Source: Alphaproteobacteria bacterium
GTDB taxonomy: Bacteria; Planctomycetota; Phycisphaerae; UBA1845
Assembly (NCBI GenBank): GCA_028285105.1
Contig: JANQQE010000032.1
Span: forward strand, 124,001 to 188,000
Direction: 5' to 3'
DNA: 64,000 nucleotides
Shown: positions 17,172 through 60,033 of the stretch, piece by piece
Position numbering within the stretch: position 1 is the stretch's first letter
How the letters are laid out: every line of letters starts with the position of its first letter
Made by a program: the position numbers and the translations under genes
The notes under the pieces: generated by a model
Databases searched by the model: none
Told to the model about the DNA's origin: nothing
What the model saw: only the letters and a program-made list of their open reading frames with translations

Positions 17172-18308
17172 TCAGTGTATTCCGAGAAACTTCTCGGCGA
17201 TCTGCAATCCGATCAGCGTAACCATCGCCGAGAGAATGCCAGCCAACGCCACGATCAGCAAGAGTTCGGTCGCTTGCAGGCGAAAGGTGAACCACCGGCT
17301 TGCCCCGATGCGCCGCATGGTGTCCAACTCATTCTTACGAAGTTGCGACGACAGGGCGACGATCAAACCGACGAACAACAACGTTGCGATCAGGACGAAC
17401 AGGTAATAGGCATCGAAGAATGATTTGATCCGAATGACCATGCCAAGGATTTTTTCCACGACTTTTGTGCAATTCTGCAATTGGAGGTTTTCATTGGTTT
17501 CGTATCGGGCTTCGAGGATGGTTGCACCTTTTTCACTCTTGGGAATCACGATCGCGGCGCTGATGGGGATTTCGGCTGGGTAGGCGTGCAGATGGAACGA
17601 CGCTCGGTTTTCCGTCGTCACTTCGTGATAAGAGATGCCTTGGTTGTGCGGGTCCTCGCTACCCGTGTGCTGCGGGTCGGGATGGCCATGCATCAAACCG
17701 TCGAGCAGCCACGTCGTCTTTAAGTTGGAAAACAGCACGCGGTCGTCGGCGGTTCCGGTGGGTTCCAAGACAGCAACCACTTTGAGATTCACCGGGTTCT
17801 GACCAGTCACGTTGTAAAGTGTTTTTCGATCCGAAAGAATGCGATCGCCAACGCTCAGTTTCAATGCATCCGCCGCTTCCGCGCCAACGACGATGTCGCC
17901 AAGTTCAAGTTGAATGCCTTGATCCTTCGCGTGTAGATTGCGAAACGCGAAGTATTCTTCGGAGATGCCGATGATGGGCGTGTCACTGGCTGAATGCTCT
18001 AGATGCAGGGGAAGCGCCGTCGCCCATTCCGAGCGATTCACCTGATCGACATCTTCCTGCGCGATCGAATTAAGCTGTGCGTCGCCGAAATAAAGCGACT
18101 TGAGAACGAGGTCGAACCGGTTGCCGCTCGCTCCGAGAACGTATGGGGTGGTGTTGGCTCGCGAGCGCAACGATTCGCCGTACTTTGTGATGATCAGATG
18201 CGACGCAATCGGCAGAGCGAAGGTCAGCGTCAGTCCCAGCACGAGGATGGCGCTTCGGTACTTAAAGAAGCGCAGGTGCTGCCACGCCAGATAGAAAACG
18301 CCATTCAT
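17172..18308 (-). CDS. FtsX/MacB-like ABC transporter permease
   Basis: A 378-residue permease with the FtsX/LolC topology: one helix near the N-terminus (about 20-42), a periplasmic domain of about 220 residues, then three helices (about 295-315, 335-355, 355-375). It contains the signature ELDTMRRIGASRW found in the cytoplasmic loop of this family. Its start overlaps the stop of the ATPase gene in an ATGA arrangement, indicating translational coupling. Together they form a type VII ABC (MacB/LolCDE-like) system, which transmits force across the membrane and does not usually pump substrate through it. Last gene of the six-gene minus-strand run. Confidence 0.9.
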   Translation of the reverse strand: MNGVFYLAWQHLRFFKYRSAILVLGLTLTFALPIASHLIITKYGESLRSRANTTPYVLGASGNRFDLVLKSLYFGDAQLNSIAQEDVDQVNRSEWATALPLHLEHSASDTPIIGISEEYFAFRNLHAKDQGIQLELGDIVVGAEAADALKLSVGDRILSDRKTLYNVTGQNPVNLKVVAVLEPTGTADDRVLFSNLKTTWLLDGLMHGHPDPQHTGSEDPHNQGISYHEVTTENRASFHLHAYPAEIPISAAIVIPKSEKGATILEARYETNENLQLQNCTKVVEKILGMVIRIKSFFDAYYLFVLIATLLFVGLIVALSSQLRKNELDTMRRIGASRWFTFRLQATELLLIVALAGILSAMVTLIGLQIAEKFLGIH

Positions 18309-18967
18309 GCGTGAGCCGCCACAAACGCGCCCACATCGATCGTTCGATCAAAGCGGCTGGTCAGCTGAAGATTGTGAGTGACAACGATCAGCGTCGCTCC
18401 GGATCGTTTCACGTTTTCAACAAGAATCGAGATGACTTCGTTGGCTGTCTCGCCGTCAAGATTGCCCGTGGGTTCATCCGCAAGGACGATTGAGGGTGGC
18501 GTGACGATGGCGCGACAGATGGCAATTCGCTGACGTTCGCCAAACGAAAGCTCCCGCGGGTATCGGTCAAGATGGCGATCGATGCCGAGGCTTCCTGCGA
18601 GTTCTTCCGCTCGGTCGCAGTCCGCCTGAATCAATTCGCGGGCACCCAATCGGAATGGGAGCAAGATATTGTCGCGCACGGTGAGGTATTCCAACAAGGC
18701 GAATTCCTGAAAAACGAACCCGATTCGGTTCAATCGAAACTGTCGGCGAGCATCGTCGCGGAGATCTGTCAATTTGGTGTTGCAAGAGATGATGGTCCCA
18801 CGCTGCTGTGTCAGTTCGCCAGAAATAAGATTCACCAGCGTTGTCTTGCCGCTTCCGCTGGGTCCGACGACAGCCACCCGTTCGCCCTCCTCGATCGTCA
18901 GATCGGGAACCGAAAGGCTGAATCTGTGATTCGGGTAGGTAAACTCGACGTTGGTGAATTGAATCAT
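18305..18967 (-). CDS. LolD/MacB-like ABC transporter ATPase
   Basis: A 220-residue ABC ATPase starting MIQFTNVEFTYPNHRFSLSV. It shows Walker A GPSGSGKTT, Q-loop FVFQEFALLEYLTVRDN, signature LSFGERQRIAICRAI, Walker B SIVLADEPTGNLD and the switch histidine in VVTHN. These are features of the LolD/MacB/FtsE group. ATG 18967 aligns with the family start; an upstream in-frame ATG at 19015 would add 16 unrelated residues. It is coupled to the permease at 17172 and lies 77 bases after the gene at 19044. Confidence 0.92.
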   Translation of the reverse strand: MIQFTNVEFTYPNHRFSLSVPDLTIEEGERVAVVGPSGSGKTTLVNLISGELTQQRGTIISCNTKLTDLRDDARRQFRLNRIGFVFQEFALLEYLTVRDNILLPFRLGARELIQADCDRAEELAGSLGIDRHLDRYPRELSFGERQRIAICRAIVTPPSIVLADEPTGNLDGETANEVISILVENVKRSGATLIVVTHNLQLTSRFDRTIDVGAFVAAHA

Positions 18968-19043
18968 TGTTTGGCGACAGACCGAAGGATGCAGCGCGTA
19001 TTTACATTGACGCAAGAATGTTCGACCGGTTTACATGGACCGA

Positions 19044-20384
19044 TTACGTTTCCGGTTCGGATGACAGCAACTCCGTCTTGACGATTTTCCAGAATCCGTC
19101 GCATGGGGCAAGCGTGTAGACCGCTTCAAAAATGTTCGATGTGTCGTGAACGTGCCCCCAGTGGTAAACCATGCCGTCGACGCGCCACTGCCCGCGGACC
19201 TGGAACGGATGACCTTCGACATTGGTCGATTCTGTCAATTCCGATTTCAGGATTTCAACCGATTTGACCTTGGCGATTGCACCGTTTTGATCCGCCGACA
19301 CCAGTCCGGCTTGCACTTCCTTGTACACTCTGTCGAGCAATGGCCCATCAACGCTCTGTTCCAGTACATCGTAGACATCGCTTTCGTTTCGAAACTCGAA
19401 CGCCCGATAGATGTTCTTCAACAGCGATTCAAAAATGTCCGGTGCATTCGCCGCCATGGGGCCATCGGTGGGTGGTGAGGCAGGCTTACCGATTGCGATG
19501 GTTCCGACGCTTCGCATTTGAATGGAAGCCGCTAAAGCGACGGACAATATCACGATGCGCAGCGGCATTGGGCGCTTCAGTCGATTGCACAGGTAAGCTC
19601 CGACGATTCCCGATGCCAGAACCGCCAGCGAGGCCATCGGAATTCGAGCAGGTTCATTCGCCGGTGCGGGTGTACTCACAGCGATCCGCTGATCGGCGGG
19701 CGCATCGGGGCGATTCCATTCAAGCGTTGGAGTCTCTTGCGTAAAGGTCACGATGCGACTTTGCGATGGGGTGTCAAGCCGCGCCGCCAGGCTCGGATCG
19801 ACAGGATCGCCAAATGCATCGACAGAATACTCGTTGGCAAAAATGTTCCATGTCAGTCGGACGTTTCTTGGAGTCGTCGGCGCTTGAAACACGACTTGCA
19901 CCCGGGCATCGGGTGGAAGCGTTTCGCTGATTGCCAGGTCAGCCGACGCGCTGGATCGAACATACTTGAAACTTTCGAGTTGTGGATTGGCTGACAGGTC
20001 ATTGATTTCAACCGGTGGCAATTGCTCGAAAAAAGTTGCAAAAGCCGCCTGTTCTGCGGCCTGCTGCCCTAGGTCGAGCATCTCAAACGTGTCCTCGACC
20101 AATTTCAGGTTGAGGTGCCCACGTTCGTGTGGAATCAATGTGTTGAGGAAACCGTTCGACAGCGAAATGTCGTAGACGACCCGCTCGTTTTCGATGCTGA
20201 TGACGAGTCCCAGCGCCGGATGTTCGTGCAGGACGATCTCGAATGCGCTGTGCGGGTGGGCAAACAAGAAACCGGGACAGACGAACACGCCCAGCGCGAT
20301 CATGCACACCATCGCGCGGGTCAGATTCGCCCACCCCGGTTCAGCGCAATCCGATGAACGCCTCCCGTTAATCCGTTTTCCCAT
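19044..20384 (-). CDS. Exported/membrane protein of unknown function (six-gene operon)
   Basis: A 446-residue protein, not recognised. It has an N-terminal signal-type helix (MVCMIALGVFVCPGFLFA, about residues 25-42), and the mature chain begins with histidine-rich HPHSAFEIVLHEHP. An extracytoplasmic domain of about 200 residues follows, then two hydrophobic stretches near 250-290. The C-terminal domain of about 130 residues starts FESLLKNIYRAFEFRNESDV, contains WRVDGMVYHWGHVH and ends FWKIVKTELLSSE, with the look of a small alpha+beta protein domain. ATG 20384 overlaps the end of the peptidase gene by 17 bases, suggesting coupling; ATG 20312 is the alternative. Its place ahead of the ABC pair suggests a role at the envelope. 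Confidence 0.75.
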   Translation of the reverse strand: MGKRINGRRSSDCAEPGWANLTRAMVCMIALGVFVCPGFLFAHPHSAFEIVLHEHPALGLVISIENERVVYDISLSNGFLNTLIPHERGHLNLKLVEDTFEMLDLGQQAAEQAAFATFFEQLPPVEINDLSANPQLESFKYVRSSASADLAISETLPPDARVQVVFQAPTTPRNVRLTWNIFANEYSVDAFGDPVDPSLAARLDTPSQSRIVTFTQETPTLEWNRPDAPADQRIAVSTPAPANEPARIPMASLAVLASGIVGAYLCNRLKRPMPLRIVILSVALAASIQMRSVGTIAIGKPASPPTDGPMAANAPDIFESLLKNIYRAFEFRNESDVYDVLEQSVDGPLLDRVYKEVQAGLVSADQNGAIAKVKSVEILKSELTESTNVEGHPFQVRGQWRVDGMVYHWGHVHDTSNIFEAVYTLAPCDGFWKIVKTELLSSEPET

Positions 20385-22164
20385 CGGCAACCAGCAAGAA
20401 TTCCTCGAAACGGGTGGCTTTGATGTCCGACACTTCGACAGACCCATACGCGACGAGAGCGATGGGCCAATCGATGTCCTCGTTGAGTTGGTCCGCTCGC
20501 AATGAGGGGAAACGTCCCGTGCATTTTCCGTCCACGTAAAGGGCGATTTCGTCGGTCACAACGCAGGTCAATGAATGTTGCTGTCGATCGGACAAGACGG
20601 CACCCACTTCAATGCCGGTGTCGTCACCGCGATGGTCGAGCATGCCCAAAGCGAAACGCAAGGGCGCATCGTAGGATGCATCTGGGGCACGCAATTTGAA
20701 TTTGATCGCCATTGGTGGTTCTTCGTCCAGACGAATGCCCAGCAGCGTACCGATCTTGCTGGGTTTCATCGAGCAGACGAGCTTGTTGCCATCGACTTTC
20801 CAGAAACGTTTTGATCCGCCCACATCTTTGAATTGATCCATTGAATCCGTGCGAATGTCGGTCCAGTCCTCGGCGTTTTCGACGGTCGGCAGTTCGCTGA
20901 ATTTCGCCTGGACGAGCGGTTCGTCGAGCGTTTTGGCAACCGAGGTTTCGCCTTCGTCGATCTTATCGCCATAGCGAACGTACAGATCGCGGGCCCATTC
21001 GACCCAGCGGCGTTCAAATTCATCGACTGCGATTTCTTCGGGTAAGCCCAATGCACCTGCCGTCGCTTCGTCATGGCTCTTGCCTTGCTTCAGCGCCGTG
21101 AAGAATGCTTTGGCGGCATCCGGACCGTATTGCTCAAGCAAGAAGAGAATCATCGTCGCGCTTTGTTCATAGAATCGCCAGACACGATCGCCACGATGCG
21201 GGTATTCCTTTTGTGCGAAGAGATCGCGGAAGCGGTAGTACTCGCCAGCGGCTGCGTCGCGCCCGGTCTTTGCCGCCTCCTTGTAGTGGTTTCGGGATTG
21301 TTCCATGCGGCGGGCCATCCCTTCGTTGATCCACCGTGGAACCCGCGTGCCGCCGAACCATTCGTTCACCACCATATGGACCAGTTCGTGAGGCAGTGTT
21401 CCTTCCAGTGACTCGCGGTCGAGCTTGCCTTCGTTATCGAGCATGTACATGGCGATGAAGATGGGTACGCCGGTGCGGGAGTCGGACATGGTTACGCCCC
21501 CACTTCCTTCGAATGAGGGGTTGTAGCTGACATAGTCCTTGCTGTCTTTGAAGACGTAAATCGGGATTCGAAGAGCCCATTCTTGACCGCCGTGGAAATA
21601 CTTGTCGAGCAGGAATTCGGTGTACTTTTCAGCCAGCTGGTTGGCCACGTATGCCGCCCGCCCCGTAGGCGCGTACATCTTGAAGAAAGGACTCTCCAGG
21701 AGTACAGGAGGAAGTACCCCCTGACCGCCTGCCGGCTTGACTTCGTCGACTTCGTTTTCAAGCCGTTTCCAGTCGATGCGTCCGACATCGACCTTATAGG
21801 GATCGTTTTCCCAGGTGTTGTCTTCATCCAATTCTGGTTTCTGCGGACCGTTGATTCTCAAAAGCCCCAGGCGGGCCAGCTGCGTTCTTTCCGGATCGCG
21901 GGTGATTGTTTTCAGGTCCGTCCAGATCTTGGCGGCTTGTTCTTTTTTCTCGAGCTTTTCGTAGGCCTCAGCCAACAGGACGTACGCTTCTTCATGCCCC
22001 GGGTTGGATTTGATTTCTTTTGCCAGTTCGTTGACCACAGACTTGTAATCACCCGAAGCGAACTTGGTGTGCAATTCCGACATCGATAACGCCATTGCAC
22101 CTTGCACGAACAGGAGGCTTAGTGCGGACGTGACTAGCAAGCGAAGGTAAGTATGGTTTTTCAT
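20368..22164 (-). CDS. Secreted TPR/gluzincin-type peptidase (peptidase MA-like)
   Basis: A 598-residue secreted protein. A signal peptide ends near residue 26 and TPR-like helices occupy about 28-100 (GHEEAYVLLAEAYEKLEK). The metallopeptidase-like domain spans about 160-400, with HELVH (about 257-261) as the zinc motif and RWINEGMA about 18 residues later supplying the third-ligand glutamate, the arrangement of peptidase MA-like gluzincins. The C-terminal 190 residues look like a LamG/concanavalin-type beta-sandwich (FWKVDGNKLVCS, ALYVDGKCTGRFP). Likely periplasmic or surface; substrate unknown. AGGA lies ten bases before the ATG. Flanked closely by operon partners, with its stop inside the next gene. 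Confidence 0.85.
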   Translation of the reverse strand: MKNHTYLRLLVTSALSLLFVQGAMALSMSELHTKFASGDYKSVVNELAKEIKSNPGHEEAYVLLAEAYEKLEKKEQAAKIWTDLKTITRDPERTQLARLGLLRINGPQKPELDEDNTWENDPYKVDVGRIDWKRLENEVDEVKPAGGQGVLPPVLLESPFFKMYAPTGRAAYVANQLAEKYTEFLLDKYFHGGQEWALRIPIYVFKDSKDYVSYNPSFEGSGGVTMSDSRTGVPIFIAMYMLDNEGKLDRESLEGTLPHELVHMVVNEWFGGTRVPRWINEGMARRMEQSRNHYKEAAKTGRDAAAGEYYRFRDLFAQKEYPHRGDRVWRFYEQSATMILFLLEQYGPDAAKAFFTALKQGKSHDEATAGALGLPEEIAVDEFERRWVEWARDLYVRYGDKIDEGETSVAKTLDEPLVQAKFSELPTVENAEDWTDIRTDSMDQFKDVGGSKRFWKVDGNKLVCSMKPSKIGTLLGIRLDEEPPMAIKFKLRAPDASYDAPLRFALGMLDHRGDDTGIEVGAVLSDRQQHSLTCVVTDEIALYVDGKCTGRFPSLRADQLNEDIDWPIALVAYGSVEVSDIKATRFEEFLLVADGKTD

Positions 22165-22263
22165 GGTTCGTCGTCCTGAATGCGGTTTGTTTCGGGGACT
22201 GCGTTTTGTTCGAATACCTTTGACCGTACCGTTTTATGGCACGGGCTTTGCCAAATACAACTA

Positions 22264-23526
22264 TCACACGCGGGTCCGGTCTCGATTGCGGTTCGTGTTT
22301 TGCTCCATTTGCTCGACGCGCTCCAGGGTGTCTTCCCATTGTTTGATAAAGGGCGTCAGTTTCTTGGGAAAACCTCGGGCTCGTTTGAGCAGATATTCAA
22401 TCAGGCGCCTCATGGGCCGGCTTTGATCCAGAAATCGATCGCACGCTTCGCGCCATTGGGTGCGTTGGTCAGCCGTTAGTCGGCCGTCGTCACCGCCGAA
22501 CGAAAAGTTCTGGTTGTCTGGATACACACCCGACAACTCGCCGAGAAGATGATTGTAGACCTGTTCAAGGTGAAGCAGTTCTGTCCGCACAAGATCGAGC
22601 TCAAATCCGGATGCGTAACCCGGTAAAATCGCCTCGGCACGATAAACAGATTGTTCGGTTTTGCGGAGCATGTCCATGTATGGAAGCGTGTCTTCAACGA
22701 CGAGACGGCGGTCCGGCTCGTCCGGATCGCGGGTGACATCTTGAATGGCCTTCAAGGTCTCATTCGGGTCGAGGGACTCTTCGAACGATCCGACGCTGAT
22801 CTTGTCGTTACGCACAATTTGATTGAGGTATTCAAGCAGACCGGCTTCCATGATCTCGCGATCTTGAAGGGCGTTTCGGCGCTTGGCTTTGTTTCGCATC
22901 TCGCGTTTCATGAAATCTTTGGTACGTACGCCACCGACCTTGCGAAGGTTTCGATCGGGGTTTTCCTTAAAGAGGTCTTTGTGGGCTTTTGCACGAATTT
23001 TGTCGGATTCCAAATCGGACTTGGACATTTCGTCGAGCATTTTGTCCACCTCGGCCCAATTGCCTTTGCGCTCGAGGTTTTCGATCAACAACCACTTGAT
23101 GCGGCTGTCATCGAGATCCGTACCCTTGCCAAGAAGAGGCTCGACCAATGGTGGGATTTCGTCGAAGCGGCCCAGTTCATAAAGTGCGTCGGCATTCTTA
23201 AGCGTTTGGGCGAGATCCGTCAGTTTGCCATAGTCGCGGACCTGGCTGATCGAAAAGACGGCACTGCTTTTGTGATCTTCGCGAACGATCTTTTCGATTT
23301 TGTTGTGTCTAAACGACTTGTCGCCGAACTTCGTTTTCATTTTTACATAGCGTGATGTTTCCTTCACGATCTCGCCTTCGACGACGGTTCCGTCCTTGAG
23401 GATAATCGTGTCGGCTAGGGCGCATTGCGCGAAAACAAAAAGGCATGACATTGCCATGACCCAGACGAATAGCGCAGGGTCTCTGCTCTTGTTGATTCTT
23501 GCTTCCCATGAACGTCTAAAACACAT
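22264..23526 (-). CDS. Exported protein with SH3-like N-terminal motif
   Basis: A 420-residue exported protein. The signal peptide (FVWVMAMSCLFVFAQCALA) is followed by DTIILKDGTVVEGEIVKE, a short beta motif found at the start of many planctomycete secreted proteins and reminiscent of Sm/SH3-like barrels. The rest is charged and helical, with TPR-like segments (about 90-150) and a basic middle (RKVGGVRTKDFMKREMRN). The end is Arg/Asn-rich. ATG 23526 is chosen because AAGGGA lies nine bases upstream and a good signal peptide results; ATG 23550 is the alternative. It sits 82 bases after the DUF4159 gene and 99 before the peptidase gene. Function unknown. Confidence 0.75.
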   Translation of the reverse strand: MCFRRSWEARINKSRDPALFVWVMAMSCLFVFAQCALADTIILKDGTVVEGEIVKETSRYVKMKTKFGDKSFRHNKIEKIVREDHKSSAVFSISQVRDYGKLTDLAQTLKNADALYELGRFDEIPPLVEPLLGKGTDLDDSRIKWLLIENLERKGNWAEVDKMLDEMSKSDLESDKIRAKAHKDLFKENPDRNLRKVGGVRTKDFMKREMRNKAKRRNALQDREIMEAGLLEYLNQIVRNDKISVGSFEESLDPNETLKAIQDVTRDPDEPDRRLVVEDTLPYMDMLRKTEQSVYRAEAILPGYASGFELDLVRTELLHLEQVYNHLLGELSGVYPDNQNFSFGGDDGRLTADQRTQWREACDRFLDQSRPMRRLIEYLLKRARGFPKKLTPFIKQWEDTLERVEQMEQNTNRNRDRTRV

Positions 23527-23607
23527 CGGTTCAAATCCCTTTGATTTCATTGCGGATGTTGTCAAAATCCAATCGGAAACCATCCTGATCAGTAGCAGGT
23601 CGCCAGG

Positions 23608-26532
23608 TCACATGCTCGATTGCAGCGATCTTTGAAGCGAGTACAGCACAAGGTTGGCGCCAAGTTGTCGGCTGTACGTTGGCATAATGCCCCGACACTT
23701 CGGATACATGAAGTATCCCAAACCGCTGCCCACGTCGTGCGTACTCAAGATTCCGATTTCTTCGCCGTCGCGTTCAATGATGTAGGCGTCGATTCGCGGA
23801 AGTTTCTCATAATCGTCGCGAAGCGTTCGCCGCATCGCCATGGTGCGAACATCATAGCCAAACGTCTCGTAGAGTTTTCCATTCAGCACGGGATGATTGG
23901 CGACGAGTTTGCGAATGCGAATTTCTCCCTTCAGCTTTTGTAGATCGGCACGGAACGATTCAGCCCAGTTGGGGTCGCCGGTCAACACCTCGGCGAACAG
24001 GAACGCTCCCTTGTCGATCTGTCTGTTGATGAGTCCCAGTTGCGCTTCGGTGAGTTTTTCCGGGCCGCCGCAAGACACCCATACGAGGCGAACATCGTTG
24101 GCTGGCTTGTCGATCGGTGCGTTTTCGATGGACATGCGATAACCCGATTCGATGGACCGACTCAACGTTTCCGGGAGGTCGGGAAAGACGGGCTGACTCG
24201 CGCCGACTTCCAGATGGGCCATCTTCATCGACTTTCCGGTCGTCGTTCCGGTCTCCCAGGTGGAGTGCAAAAAGCTGCTGCGTGGCGGGTCGCCATCCAT
24301 CGTGTAGTGAAGCAGGTTGTCGAAGAATTTGAACGGGGTTTGGTCGCCTTGGACGTCGTAGGTGTTGAGTTTGCACGACCAATCCTTCGGTGTGAGGAAC
24401 ACGAAATCCTTAATGCCGTTACCGATCGTTCGCATGCCTCCGAGGTCTTCGAACTTGATTTCATGCTTGGCGGTAAGAAGGTCGCTGTCTTCTGAAATCG
24501 TGCTGATCTTGTATTCGCCGAAGGCTTTGGCCAGCCCAGTTTCAACGTCGCTTCGGCGCTGTTCGTGGTCTTCAGCGATATTGAATACCACCACGCCCCC
24601 ACCAAAGCAGTAGTCGCGAAGCCGTTTCCAATGTTCGTCCTCGAACTCGAGTTCGCCCGCGACATGGAAGTAGAGAATCGGTACGCGAATGAGGTCTTCG
24701 ATGGGGTCGTCGATATCGAAAACGCGCCAGTTCAAGGGTTTCTTGCGATTCTTTCGAAGAAACCGCGTCAGATGTTCGGCGTCTCGCGAGAAATCGAGAT
24801 CGTCGTTTTCGCTGACGATGTGTCTTTGAAAAACGATCGGAGCGCTACCCGCATCAAGCACGTTCAGGGCGGCTGCACTGAATATCAGACTACCTGCAAA
24901 CAATCCGCTTCCCTGATCCAGATACTGAATGATGGTTTCGGATTCGGTGCGAAAGACATCCTTTTCGTGCAATCGATGAACACCCGATTGCTCCATGAAG
25001 TTCAGCATTGCGAGCGCGTTGTAGATCGGATTCGGCTGACTGTTGAGCGTGGGCAATTTTTTGTAATACTCGTCATAATAATCATCGAGCCAATCCATGC
25101 CGTTTCGCAGTCCCGACAGGTGTCGCGAGTTGGTCAGGTACTGCATGCATCGATCGGAACCCGCCGCAAAAGCCATGTCCAGCGTGAGAAATAGTCCCGT
25201 CATGCCCCAGGCTGTGTTCATGGTTGTGGTGGCTTCGCCCAAACCTCCGTACTTGTCGAGTCGCGCTCTGAATCCGCCGTCACGCGCTTGCGCTTCTCGG
25301 AAGTAGCGGGCTGCGTTGACCCAAGTCTTGGGTCTGATCGTGTATCCGGCATAGTAGGCCTCGCGAAGAGCCGACACGGCATTGAGGGTGCTGTTGTTGT
25401 CGGTCTTCAGCGAACGATTCTTGGTTTCGGCATCGGGGTCTGTCGAAGTCGACCAGCCACCATCTTCGTATTGGCAGTCAACCAATGTATTGATGTCGCT
25501 GGCGACTTGCTGGCGGTACTCCGGAAGTCCGTAATTTGCCAGAAAGAAGAGGCGGTTGGATACTGCGTTTCCATCGGTAGGCTCTTGCTCTGCCAACCAT
25601 TTCATGGCCGCTTTCATGGGCTTGGCGTTCAGATCTTCCCCCTGTTTCGCCAGCGTATCGAGGATATATGCGGTTATTCCCACACTGTCGTCTATGCTGC
25701 CAGCATTCCAATAGCCTTGTTGGTTCTGCGCTCTCTTGATGGCGTTTGCTGTTCGCTCGTGGGCCAACACGATTTGTTCTTCCAAGACATCGTCGATGGT
25801 GATGTACCGCGTTGGTGTGGGGAGGGTTGGCTCCTTGCCTTCAAGCAATGCTTCGTTGATTTCGCGCAGGCTCACGCGCGTGAAGGTGGCGCTGCCCTTG
25901 AAGTTTTTAGGAAACTTAAAGACAAGCCACTGTCCCCCCGTGATGTACTGAAAGTCAGGCGTCTTGACCACGCCACGTTTCGTAAAGTCGTCGTACGACT
26001 TGCCCTCGTCAGGCCAATCCAGTTTGACGGATGCACCAACGAACTCGCCATCCGCCCAAAATGCCGGGGCGATCATCTCGAATTCAGGGAGTTTTCCTTT
26101 TCCACCGGGGATGCAAGTAACATTGTACGAATATTGGCGGTTGGGCCGTATGCTTCCCAGCAGGTCAAACCAAATTTCAATTTCGTATTCGCCTCTGGCA
26201 TCTTTGATCCCAGACGCATCGAGATTCAGACCAGCGAGACTTCCGCCTTGCACGTAGCCAACCAACATGCCTTCAGCCAACTTACCCGCCGATGGTCCGC
26301 GGGCGATGACCCGACCGAAGCTTTGTCTTCCTGGAATCTCAAAGATGGCTTCATGTTCCGTCCCGCTCAGACGAACTGCCGCCCGGGTTTGCGGTTGTTC
26401 AAGATCGCCATTGGCCACCATGTTGGGATTGGCATTGGCGTACGGACTGAGACAGGTCGCAATAGTCCCCACAATCAAGAGTGCGCTGGACCATTTGGCG
26501 CCTGGCATTCGTCGACCCGAATTGTTCATCAT
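23608..26532 (-). CDS. Exported alpha/alpha-toroid protein with two DUF4159-like domains
   Basis: A 974-residue exported protein, first gene of the six-gene run. After a signal peptide (about 1-36) comes a beta-rich region (about 40-230) with carbohydrate-binding-module look. Residues about 260-560 hold repeats typical of prenyltransferase/squalene-cyclase toroids (NQQGYWNAGS, YEDGGWSTS, ARDGGFRAR), but no DxDD cyclase motif was seen. The C-terminal half holds two segments like DUF4159: IRVPILYFHVAGE...GGGVVVFNIAED and VRLVWVSCGGPEKLTEAQ...KGAFLFAEVL. DUF4159 has a glutamine-amidotransferase-like fold and unknown function. GGAG lies nine bases before ATG 26532. Likely binding or scaffolding rather than isoprenoid chemistry; this is inference. 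Confidence 0.85.
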   Translation of the reverse strand: MMNNSGRRMPGAKWSSALLIVGTIATCLSPYANANPNMVANGDLEQPQTRAAVRLSGTEHEAIFEIPGRQSFGRVIARGPSAGKLAEGMLVGYVQGGSLAGLNLDASGIKDARGEYEIEIWFDLLGSIRPNRQYSYNVTCIPGGKGKLPEFEMIAPAFWADGEFVGASVKLDWPDEGKSYDDFTKRGVVKTPDFQYITGGQWLVFKFPKNFKGSATFTRVSLREINEALLEGKEPTLPTPTRYITIDDVLEEQIVLAHERTANAIKRAQNQQGYWNAGSIDDSVGITAYILDTLAKQGEDLNAKPMKAAMKWLAEQEPTDGNAVSNRLFFLANYGLPEYRQQVASDINTLVDCQYEDGGWSTSTDPDAETKNRSLKTDNNSTLNAVSALREAYYAGYTIRPKTWVNAARYFREAQARDGGFRARLDKYGGLGEATTTMNTAWGMTGLFLTLDMAFAAGSDRCMQYLTNSRHLSGLRNGMDWLDDYYDEYYKKLPTLNSQPNPIYNALAMLNFMEQSGVHRLHEKDVFRTESETIIQYLDQGSGLFAGSLIFSAAALNVLDAGSAPIVFQRHIVSENDDLDFSRDAEHLTRFLRKNRKKPLNWRVFDIDDPIEDLIRVPILYFHVAGELEFEDEHWKRLRDYCFGGGVVVFNIAEDHEQRRSDVETGLAKAFGEYKISTISEDSDLLTAKHEIKFEDLGGMRTIGNGIKDFVFLTPKDWSCKLNTYDVQGDQTPFKFFDNLLHYTMDGDPPRSSFLHSTWETGTTTGKSMKMAHLEVGASQPVFPDLPETLSRSIESGYRMSIENAPIDKPANDVRLVWVSCGGPEKLTEAQLGLINRQIDKGAFLFAEVLTGDPNWAESFRADLQKLKGEIRIRKLVANHPVLNGKLYETFGYDVRTMAMRRTLRDDYEKLPRIDAYIIERDGEEIGILSTHDVGSGLGYFMYPKCRGIMPTYSRQLGANLVLYSLQRSLQSSM

Positions 26533-26970
26533 GTTCGATTGCTCCGCTGTAGTCGATGACCGATTTGTTTTCGTGCGTTTACGCCGCCAATCAACTGCAA
26601 CCGAATCGCCGACCTGATTCATTCTATCGCGGGTCAAGCCAATATGTGTATTATGCCGCGGGCGAATTCGAATTGAGTTGACTCCGAACCCACTCATCAA
26701 AACAGTGGGCCCATAAAAGAGATTTGCGGAACAACCGCCGCCTTGATCGAACTAATATAACTAACGCTTTTAGTTTATCGGTATTCTGGACGGATTGCCA
26801 GAACCGTTTAAGGTGGCGTCGCACAAAATTGAGTTGCGCTTCACGGGCACGTGGAATCTGCACAATGCCGGACCGCCACCACCAAGAACGGGCAGAACTT
26901 GCCTGCTGCGCTTAACTTGTTATTTTTCAATACCTTACATGTATGATGGTTCTCTGGGAACGGGCGAGAG
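26533..26970. other. Divergent intergenic region
   Basis: A 438-base, AT-richer gap between the minus-strand operon and the TSUP gene. It should hold the operon promoter. Candidate hexamers (for example TTGACC near 26633 on the minus strand) lack a correctly spaced partner. No RNA or repeat was recognised. Confidence 0.5.
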
Positions 26971-56880: not shown

Positions 56881-57303
56881 GTTGCGGCGACGATGGGGCG
56901 AATGCCCGACCCCGAGACGTGGCTATTAATTCGCTTCGTAGCGTAAATTCGTTTTTCGGCGTAAATTCGTTTTTCAGGGCTATTAATGGCGAGAAGCGAC
57001 AACTAACGACAATCTCGCTACCAACCGATCTAGTTCCGAAAAACCGTTTCCGATAATATCGTAGACATCAGGCATCTTATCCGGCGGATTGTTGCAGGGC
57101 AACGGTGGCGATTTGAGGGGGTCAGGACGGCTTCGCGAGTCGGATGATCTCTATCGGTTGTAACATTCGCCAAAGGATGTCAAACCAAAACTGGAAGCCG
57201 ATTGACTTACAGACCCATCGAATTTCTGACCTACGGGCAAATGTCTGCGGTCATCTGTTCAGCAATCAGCGGGATACTTTTTAACACTAGGAGATGGTCG
57301 AAC
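56881..57303. other. Divergent intergenic region with small direct repeats
   Basis: A 423-base gap between the exporter and the metalloprotease gene. It holds an 18-base tandem repeat (56941-56976) between two GGCTATTAAT copies (56931-56940 and 56979-56988). AGGAG (57289-57293) precedes the downstream gene. No RNA gene or clear promoter was recognised. Confidence 0.5.
56941..56976. repeat. 18-bp tandem direct repeat, two copies
   Basis: GCGTAAATTCGTTTTTC plus one base occurs twice in direct succession (56941-56958 and 56959-56976), differing only at the last base. It lies 61 bases upstream of the exporter start, so it may overlap the exporter promoter. It is bracketed by GGCTATTAAT copies. 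Confidence 0.85.
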
Positions 57304-60033
57304 ATGATCGCGAAATCGAATGCAGCATGGATTCGTCGGGGCTGGGGCTCAATGCTTCTGGTCATTCTGGCAATCCTCGTAGCGACACCGACGGTATCGT
57401 TCGCAGAAGGCGATGCGAAGGATGCGAAAGAAGCCAAGAAGAAAAAGAAGAAAGAGAAACCCGATTTCAAACCCTTTGAAGAAGTCACCAAAGGGTACGA
57501 ACTGATCGAAGGCTTCTTCCCGATGTATTACAACAAGAAGACTGACGACCTGCTGGCTGTGATCCCGAGCGGTATGGTCGGTAAGGACTTCTTAATGGCC
57601 CTGAGCATGACCTCGGGTGGTGGCATCACGGGATTCCCCCTCGGGCATCGTCTGGTTCGGTGGGAAGAATACAACAAGAAAATGATCCTGGTTCAGCCGG
57701 AACTGCGCCACCTTAAAGGCAAAGGAACCGACGTGCAGGACGTGATCGACCGCACTTACACCGATTCGGTTCTGCTCTCGACACCGATCGTCACCAAACG
57801 CGGTGGCGATGCGGTCATCAATCTCGATTCAGTTCTCAAGAAAGACTTTGTCGGCCTGGGCCCGTTCTTTGGCGGTAGTATGGATTCGTCGATCAGCAAA
57901 TGGGTCAAGCGCAAAGGCTTCAAGGACAATCTCGAACTCTCCGTCGAGGCTGTATTCATGGCTGGCAATAACGGCGGAACCAAGTCGGTGATCCATTACA
58001 GTATCTCGCGCCTGCCCGAAACCGACTACAAGCCGCGCGAAGCCGACGATCGTATCGGTTACTTCATGACGGCGCGTAAGAACTGGGCAGCCGACCACGA
58101 TGACCGCACCATCTTCAAGCGTAATATTCATCGCTGGCAACTGCGCAAGAGCGATCCGAAGCAAGCCGTCTCTGACGTTCACCCCGACGATCAGATCGTC
58201 TTCTACATCGAAAAGACCGTCCCGGTGAAGTATCGCCGTTACATCCGAGAGGGCATCGAAATGTGGAACGTCGCATTCGAGAATGCGGGTATTCGCAATG
58301 CAGTTCAAGTTCGCCAGCAGACCGATACGAATGAATTCGCCAACATCGATCCGGAAGACGTCAACTACAACTTCTTCCGTTGGATCGTCAGCGGTCGTTC
58401 ATTTGCGATGGGACCGAGTCGGGCCAACCCGCTGACCGGTCAGATTCTTGATGCCGACATCATCATGGACGACTCGATGGCGCGCGTTTGGACCGCCCGT
58501 TACGATCGCATGTTGGGTGAAGGGCCTTCCGCAACTGAAGACCCGAAACTTCATTCATTCTTCGATGCCCATCCCGAGTGGCGTCCGACTTCTGCGATGA
58601 CCAATCTCATTCCCGATTCCGGTGTCGATCACAATGTGGATGACTGGGAACCGCGGGCGATGAAGATCCTGGACGCCTTCCATCCCAATGGGGCGTGTTC
58701 GTACGCAAGTGGTGCGATGCACGAAATGGCGCTGGGGGCGGCATTCCTTTCGGCAACCTCGGATGCTCTGGCTTCACGCGATGAGTATGTCGGTCAGTGG
58801 ATCAAGCTGGTTGCGTGTCATGAAGTTGGCCATACGCTTGGCCTGCGTCACAACTTCAAAGCCAGTTCATGGAAATCGCTTGATGACATCCTGGCCAACG
58901 AAGATCCAGACGTTCCGATGACCGCATCGGTCATGGACTACAACCCCGCCGTTTACAACCTCGATGGATCAAAGCGAAAGCTCTACATGAGCCAGGCCGT
59001 CGGTCCCTATGACGAAATCGCAATCGCGTACGGATACAGCGTGCCGACGCCAGATCAGAAAGAAGACGAAATGCTGGCGGCCATCGCCGGGCGAATTTCC
59101 GCAGAAGGACTCGACTTCGCGACCGACGAAGACAGCAGCTATCTCGCTCCCGACCCGCTGGTCAACACGTATGACAATACCAGCGACCCGCTCGAATGGG
59201 CAAAATACCGAATCGATCTTGTTAACGGTCTGAGCAAAAAAATGACCGAATGGGGCATGAAGGAAGGCGAAAGCTACAACCGCCTCCGCCAGTTGTTCGA
59301 CATGTTCCTTTACGAGATCAGCCGCGTAAACCGTTTTGCTGCCCGCCAGATTGGTGGTCAGTACATGCATCGCGATCACAAGGGCGATCCGAAAGCACGT
59401 CAACCGGTTGAACTCGTCGATGCGCAAACACAACGCAAGACGTTGGAATTCCTCAACGAACGTGTCTTTGGACCGAATGCGTTTGCGTTCGATCCTGACT
59501 TGCTCTTGAAACTCGCTCCGGGTCGATGGAATCACTGGGATACCGATTCGTACGATTACTACCAGGAATATCCGATTCACGACAAAATTTCGAATGTGCA
59601 GTCTTGGGCGCTATTTCATGTGATGAGCCCGATGACGATTCGCCGCATCTACGATGCCGGTTTGAAAGCCGCACCCGGTGAAGATTTCCTCGGTGTTCCG
59701 GAATTGATGACCTCGGTGACGGAATCCATCTGGGCAGAGGTCGATCAAGATGGTGCGAGCCAGATGAACGGCAACAGCGCACCGTTGATTTCGAGCATCC
59801 GCCGCACATTGCAGCGCAATCAATTGATGATGCTGGAACGTACCGTGATGTCCAATCCGGGTTATTCGTTCCCCGCAGATGCCGTCGCTGTCGCCCGCAT
59901 GACGCTTGGCAATCTGCGCGATCGCATTGAGAAGCGTTTGGAAGCCGGCGGACTCGATGACTACACGCAAGCGCACCTCCTCGATTCAAAAACGCGAATC
60001 GAGCGGGCATTGGAGGCTGGCTACGAGTTGTAG
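57304..60033 (+). CDS. Large secreted zinc metalloprotease (DUF5117/DUF4953 type)
   Basis: A 909-residue secreted protein. The signal peptide (SMLLVILAILVATPTVSFA) is followed by a Lys/Glu-rich stretch and the DUF5117-type region (LIEGFFPMYYNKKTDDLL). The metzincin-type zinc motif HEVGHTLGLRHNF (about 506-518) has all three histidines and the catalytic Glu, and SVMDYNPAVYNL supplies a Met-turn-like VMDY. The C-terminal DUF4953 region runs to the end. The family is common in Planctomycetota and Bacteroidota; its substrates are unknown. AGGAG lies ten bases before ATG 57304. A strong terminator follows. Confidence 0.92.
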   Translation: MIAKSNAAWIRRGWGSMLLVILAILVATPTVSFAEGDAKDAKEAKKKKKKEKPDFKPFEEVTKGYELIEGFFPMYYNKKTDDLLAVIPSGMVGKDFLMALSMTSGGGITGFPLGHRLVRWEEYNKKMILVQPELRHLKGKGTDVQDVIDRTYTDSVLLSTPIVTKRGGDAVINLDSVLKKDFVGLGPFFGGSMDSSISKWVKRKGFKDNLELSVEAVFMAGNNGGTKSVIHYSISRLPETDYKPREADDRIGYFMTARKNWAADHDDRTIFKRNIHRWQLRKSDPKQAVSDVHPDDQIVFYIEKTVPVKYRRYIREGIEMWNVAFENAGIRNAVQVRQQTDTNEFANIDPEDVNYNFFRWIVSGRSFAMGPSRANPLTGQILDADIIMDDSMARVWTARYDRMLGEGPSATEDPKLHSFFDAHPEWRPTSAMTNLIPDSGVDHNVDDWEPRAMKILDAFHPNGACSYASGAMHEMALGAAFLSATSDALASRDEYVGQWIKLVACHEVGHTLGLRHNFKASSWKSLDDILANEDPDVPMTASVMDYNPAVYNLDGSKRKLYMSQAVGPYDEIAIAYGYSVPTPDQKEDEMLAAIAGRISAEGLDFATDEDSSYLAPDPLVNTYDNTSDPLEWAKYRIDLVNGLSKKMTEWGMKEGESYNRLRQLFDMFLYEISRVNRFAARQIGGQYMHRDHKGDPKARQPVELVDAQTQRKTLEFLNERVFGPNAFAFDPDLLLKLAPGRWNHWDTDSYDYYQEYPIHDKISNVQSWALFHVMSPMTIRRIYDAGLKAAPGEDFLGVPELMTSVTESIWAEVDQDGASQMNGNSAPLISSIRRTLQRNQLMMLERTVMSNPGYSFPADAVAVARMTLGNLRDRIEKRLEAGGLDDYTQAHLLDSKTRIERALEAGYEL

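Follow-up and report, generated by a model that had tools for sequence, protein, structure and literature searches.

We analysed a 64,000-nucleotide (nt) stretch of a genome assigned to the planctomycete class Phycisphaerae (assembly GCA_028285105.1, contig JANQQE010000032.1, positions 124,001 to 188,000; called the window here) and found in it an operon of six minus-strand genes, A to F, in which two modules, each conserved independently, have been joined in a single genus of planctomycetes. Module 1 (A, B and C) appears from its sequence to be a family-restricted envelope module with a zinc peptidase whose catalytic residues are intact. Module 2 (D, E and F) combines a membrane-anchored protein, the ATPase of an ATP-binding cassette (ABC) system and a MacB-fold permease, and it is most likely a new variant of the Zrg-like metal ABC systems, lying here beside a lineage-specific peptidase module. 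The original prediction for this DNA had read all six genes as one dedicated envelope system. A search of the literature returned no description of the D-E-F cassette.

The two-module history is apparent from the distribution of the genes. Among 60 relatives examined, full-length A, B and C occur together in the five genomes of the genus and in six others; in those six the three genes are adjacent, and D, E and F do not lie beside them. D and F were found in the genus and in three further relatives, with F also present in a fourth. In these four genomes A to C are not adjacent to D or F, some of the contigs concerned being short. The complete neighbourhood is confined to the genus (5/5 genomes), and elsewhere A-B-C and D-E-F are separate, so the claim of a single conserved system did not hold. 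Of the 51 genomes examined from the window's family, 17 have B and 9 have F, and the one family genome outside the genus to have both carries them on a single contig, B at 868 kb and F at 3590 kb, with 2.7 Mb between them. Additionally, B was found in the window's family only: all ten B-matching genomes among 298 drawn from the class belong to it. A scan of viral contigs for relatives found none. Because the modules occur apart outside the genus, we conclude that the six-gene operon is a genus-level join.

Domain searches with Pfam identify an ABC_tran domain in E and place MacB_PCD and FtsX just under their cut-offs in F. The best NCBIfam matches of E include FtsE and LolD, both below the curated cut-offs (178.5 against 264.85 bits and 163.1 against 307.75 bits); F likewise falls below those for LolCE (14 against 362.45 bits) and FtsX (31.5 against 250 bits). 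The predicted LolD/MacB-type ABC pair is thus a MacB-fold pair, related to the Zrg permease branch, and not LolD/LolC by these cut-offs. In tblastn searches, F matches a Pseudomonas aeruginosa permease from a DUF2796-DUF3299 cluster with 24% identity (E = 1e-6). Consistent with this, the distant matches of F in Pseudomonas, Phaeobacter and Sulfitobacter lie in DUF2796-ATPase-permease-DUF3299 clusters of the PA4063-PA4066/Zrg type. The original prediction took the substrate of the pair to be an envelope component; because F is kin to the metal-linked Zrg permeases, a metal or metal complex is more likely.

In a phylogenetic tree of permeases, the F proteins of the genus are nested within ZnuA-linked Phycisphaerae (95/96), and the F clade stands apart both from the true Zrg permeases and from two further MacB-type permeases encoded in the same genome; several branches are long, and the deeper nodes should not be over-read. 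All 20 rows of the F clade contain two histidine motifs, HGH (residues 207-209) and FHxH (238-241). Both are missing from Zrg permeases, which keep one of the histidines, and from generic MacB-type permeases.

No Pfam family matched D, and its profile recovers a 497-residue protein of Methylomagnum (6e-41) and a 166-residue protein of Paracoccus (4e-24). A structural model of the full-length protein, built from 13 sequences (predicted local distance difference test score, pLDDT, 78.7), has a mixed N-terminal domain, two probable transmembrane (TM) helices and a C-terminal VirB8/ARC6/NTF2-like domain. Because the NTF2-like domain dominated the fold list of the full-length model, the N-terminal domain was folded alone (AlphaFold2, pLDDT 82). 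This model matched 16 PDB chains at E<=1e-3, every one of them ZrgA, PA4063 or copper-bound Ang-1, with Z scores of 7.8-9.3 (7.8-8.9 for ZrgA and PA4063) against 5.2 for the next entry. The comparison with Ang-1 (9gce) gave E = 5.8e-5, Z = 9.3 and a root-mean-square deviation (rmsd) of 4.5 over 146 aligned residues. Independently, the Ang-1 authors reported ZrgA to be the closest structure to Ang-1 (PMC12537917).

One histidine of D, H43 (H4 in the alignment of the domain), is invariant and follows an Ala-rich stretch. Just ahead of the first strand, D of the genus carries an added HPH...HEH stretch, and its relatives have only AHPG or similar. In ZrgA, the zinc site conserved among homologues consists of His35 and His37 (an H-x-H motif) together with Glu66 (PMC9820375). 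The HPH...HEH stretch, which is modelled with low confidence, may be an analogous site.

Genes next to D-E-F outside the genus also point to metals. A ZnuA-family binding protein (PF01297) is encoded after F in each of the four outgroup loci that were scanned first. A genome scan with the F profile then gave 20 loci, mainly from Phycisphaerae and Verrucomicrobia. Where the contig is long enough, most of those outside the genus have a ZnuA-type gene after F, and this order is seen in Planctomycetota, Verrucomicrobiota and two Proteobacteria. On the Methylomagnum and Paracoccus plasmids the order is ATPase, permease and 'zinc ABC transporter substrate-binding protein'. The linked ZnuA-type proteins group together in a binding-protein tree, which supports only this grouping, since several rows were dropped and one (L113) was misframed. 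The genus has no ZnuA gene at the D-E-F locus and two ZnuA-family copies elsewhere in the genome. When an orphan ZnuA was sought among these, both copies proved to lie in clusters that resemble, by order of open reading frames (ORFs), ordinary binding-protein/ATPase/permease sets. Because both belong to other apparent transport clusters, D-E-F of the genus would work without a ZnuA of its own or borrow one.

ZnuA-type proteins usually carry a metal-ligand histidine at the position of the DPAxW motif. Most of the D-E-F-linked ones (L102-L108, L118 and L119) have DPAxW at this usual ligand position, which suggests that the metal site is altered or that the substrate is a chelate. The Methylomagnum and Paracoccus cassettes (L119 and L120) lie near genes for a TonB receptor and nikR, and near two DUF4198 genes; DUF4198 is a nickel-binding family (PMC12537917). 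At another locus (L103:10314-11777), the ZnuA-type gene is followed by one for a 487-residue protein with HESCH and WWNEG, a possible gluzincin with no Pfam match, which makes this the second instance in which D-E-F has a peptidase-like neighbour.

In module 1, the predicted DUF4159 toroid protein was borne out: A matches DUF4159 at 57.9 bits and SQHop_cyclase_C at 26.5 bits (cut-off 26.1). A carbohydrate-module-like label that had also been given to A has no Pfam support, and our literature search found no mention of DUF4159. B is an SH3-like protein whose N-terminal part matches Leptospira LA_0442-type families weakly, below threshold. The gluzincin assignment of C likewise stands, as C scores 36.6 bits for Peptidase_MA_2 (cut-off 32.4) and contains HEXXH with a downstream Glu; H259, E260, H263 and E281 are invariant in ten homologues. 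Homologues of C from several other genera (L063-L066) have arginine-rich C-terminal tails, which C of the genus does not have. Elsewhere in the window, positions 57202-60033 encode a 943-residue DUF4953/DUF5117 met-zincin protein.

The locus is laid out as originally described, with all ORFs present and closely packed on the minus strand (Table 1). Spacers are 24 nt between A and B, 99 nt between B and C, and 28 or 76 nt between D and E depending on the start chosen for E, which is likely the ATG at 18967, the TTG at 19015 being the start of the longest ORF. C and D overlap by 17 nt and E and F by 4 nt. Both overlaps are identical across the five species of the genus that have been sequenced, as is the ATG of A at 26532, and the A/B and B/C spacers vary in length among them. 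Internal promoters or terminators that would separate the genes are no more frequent than expected by chance (7 promoter-like matches against 4.8, and 15 terminator-like matches against 12.6), and the six genes are likely co-transcribed. Judged by eye from sequence, A to D appear to be exported. Gene order within the genus is weak evidence for shared function, because the flanking genes on the TauE/SafE and Amidase_2 sides are syntenic too; coupling of the two modules in the genus is best indicated by the constant 17-nt overlap of C and D.

Table 1. Coordinates in the window of the six genes and of the palindrome upstream of A.
Feature	Position	Strand	Description
Gene A (module 1)	23608..26532	-	974 amino acids; predicted exported; squalene-cyclase-like toroid and DUF4159 domain
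Gene B (module 1)	22264..23583	-	Predicted exported; small N-terminal domain, then helical
Gene C (module 1)	20368..22164	-	TPR and Peptidase_MA_2 gluzincin; catalytic residues intact
Gene D (module 2)	19044..20384	-	Signal/anchor; ZrgA/Ang-1-fold N-terminal domain; two TM helices; C-terminal NTF2/VirB8-like domain with HWGHxH motif
Gene E (module 2)	18305..18967	-	ABC ATPase
Gene F (module 2)	17172..18308	-	MacB/FtsX-type permease; clade related to ZrgB/PA4065; HGH and FHxH in periplasmic domain
Palindrome AACTAA-N5-TTAGTT	26759..26775		Between A and divergent TauE/SafE gene; possible shared operator

The palindrome between A and the TauE/SafE gene has 0, 0, 0, 0 and 1 mismatches in the five species of the genus. 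A genome-wide search for a regulon found one copy per genome wherever the match is exact, and the palindrome was not found upstream of A in other genera.

Taken together, our results make it probable that the locus joins a Zrg-like, MacB-fold D-E-F system for a divalent metal, with acquisition of zinc most likely, to the family-restricted A-B-C peptidase module. In this mechanism, D would be tethered at the inner membrane, where its ZrgA/Ang-1-type domain could catch metal on the outer face and hand it to the histidine-rich site in the periplasmic domain of F. ATP hydrolysis by E would then power release or transfer of the metal by mechanotransmission. A ZnuA-type binding protein would complete the set in other lineages; in the genus, ZnuA would have been lost from the locus, with D carrying the added N-terminal HPH...HEH stretch instead. 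As to the direction of transport, V. cholerae zrgA points to uptake and the Pseudomonas relative to export.

Several observations weigh against this reading. The identity of the metal is drawn from neighbouring genes and fold only. The rmsd between D and ZrgA, PA4063 or Ang-1 is 4.5-5.3, and because it is so large we take the likeness to be a common fold and not close kinship. Indeed, searching PDB sequences with the D profile gave no match, there was no sequence match to ZrgA, and hhalign of D with a single DUF2796 protein yielded E = 0.35 over 19 columns. Three F loci (L114, L116 and L117) have no ZnuA gene. One cassette lies beside nikR; given this gene and the TonB receptor and DUF4198 genes near cassettes, some members may handle a metal other than zinc. 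In Vibrio, zrg is repressed by Zur (PMC9817125). A search for a proteobacterial Zur-like box, which may not be the box of this phylum, gave no match ahead of A or, in relatives, ahead of D. Ang-1 has a preference for Cu and Ni (PMC12537917), and a reinterpretation of the Pseudomonas relative makes it a pyochelin-cobalt exporter (PMC11481552).

These last two points lead to the alternative that we consider a serious but distinctly less likely one, in which D-E-F acts as an exporter of the MacB type, removing a metal chelate or metallophore and so guarding against metal overload, as proposed for PA4063-PA4066. The MacB and FtsX domain types of F would suit an exporter, the metal preference of Ang-1-like domains fits it, and mutants in PA4064-PA4065 accumulate both cobalt and pyochelin (PMC11481552). 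However, the ZnuA-type proteins linked to other members point to uptake, the locus has no gene for a MacA-like adaptor, and V. cholerae requires zrgA for growth without zinc (PMC9820375). An unlikely further reading is that zinc caught by D-E-F on the outside of the inner membrane is loaded, at the expense of ATP, into C, the secreted zinc peptidase. Such an ABC-driven metallation device would explain both the loss of ZnuA and the fixed C/D translational overlap in the genus. That all six genes serve one pathway for processing or moving an envelope component is similarly improbable: their close packing, the overlap fixed in five species and the secreted peptidase beside a mechanotransmission-type ABC pair speak for it, but wherever the halves were found outside the genus they lie apart, and D-E-F has metal-linked neighbours there. 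Least probable is that D-E-F serves lipoprotein release (LolCDE) or division (FtsEX). FtsE and LolD are among the best matches of E, yet every one of the FtsE, LolD, LolCE and FtsX scores is below its curated cut-off, F groups with metal-linked permeases, and the genome has other FtsX-domain permeases.

The preferred reading, a Zrg-like metal system joined to a peptidase module, describes a putative metal-handling ABC cassette made of a tethered ZrgA/Ang-1-like catcher, an ATPase, a MacB-fold permease with a four-histidine motif and, usually, a ZnuA-type protein. The cassette spans Planctomycetota, Verrucomicrobiota and Proteobacteria, and it ties together two recent findings, the Zrg zinc systems and the 'anglerase' domains. 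It would also offer a natural setting for asking how a MacB-fold transporter, whose known members work by mechanotransmission, handles metals.

The modules can be compared with the closest known systems. C shares the invariant HEXXH and downstream Glu of other Peptidase_MA_2 gluzincins, but it is set in an A-B-C neighbourhood seen here in one Phycisphaerae family only. F has the MacB_PCD and FtsX domain types of MacB and other mechanotransmission ABC transporters; in contrast to MacAB, ATPase and permease are not fused, the six genes do not include one for MacA, and the neighbours are metal-linked. With Ang-1, the 'anglerase' on HupE/UreJ-2 (PMC12537917), D shares its fold and a presumptive role as a membrane-attached metal catcher, and relatives of D have a histidine (in AHPG) at the likely mature N-terminus; unlike Ang-1, D is fused to two TM helices and an NTF2-like domain and has an ABC partner and no HupE/UreJ-2. 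From ZrgABCDE of Vibrio (PMC9820375, PMC9817125) and PA4063-PA4066 of P. aeruginosa (PMC8561739, PMC11481552), the cassette differs in that D is not DUF2796 (ZrgA) by sequence and has the TM helices and an NTF2/VirB8-like domain, no DUF3299 protein (ZrgE) is found among the six products, F has the extra HGH/FHxH region, other D-E-F members have a ZnuA-type protein, and the upstream regions searched showed no proteobacterial Zur box. In common with these systems, it has a separate ABC ATPase gene adjoining that for a MacB-fold permease, a partner with the ZrgA fold (in the AlphaFold2 model of D, and as a shared fold only), and a permease detectably homologous to those of DUF2796/DUF3299 clusters.

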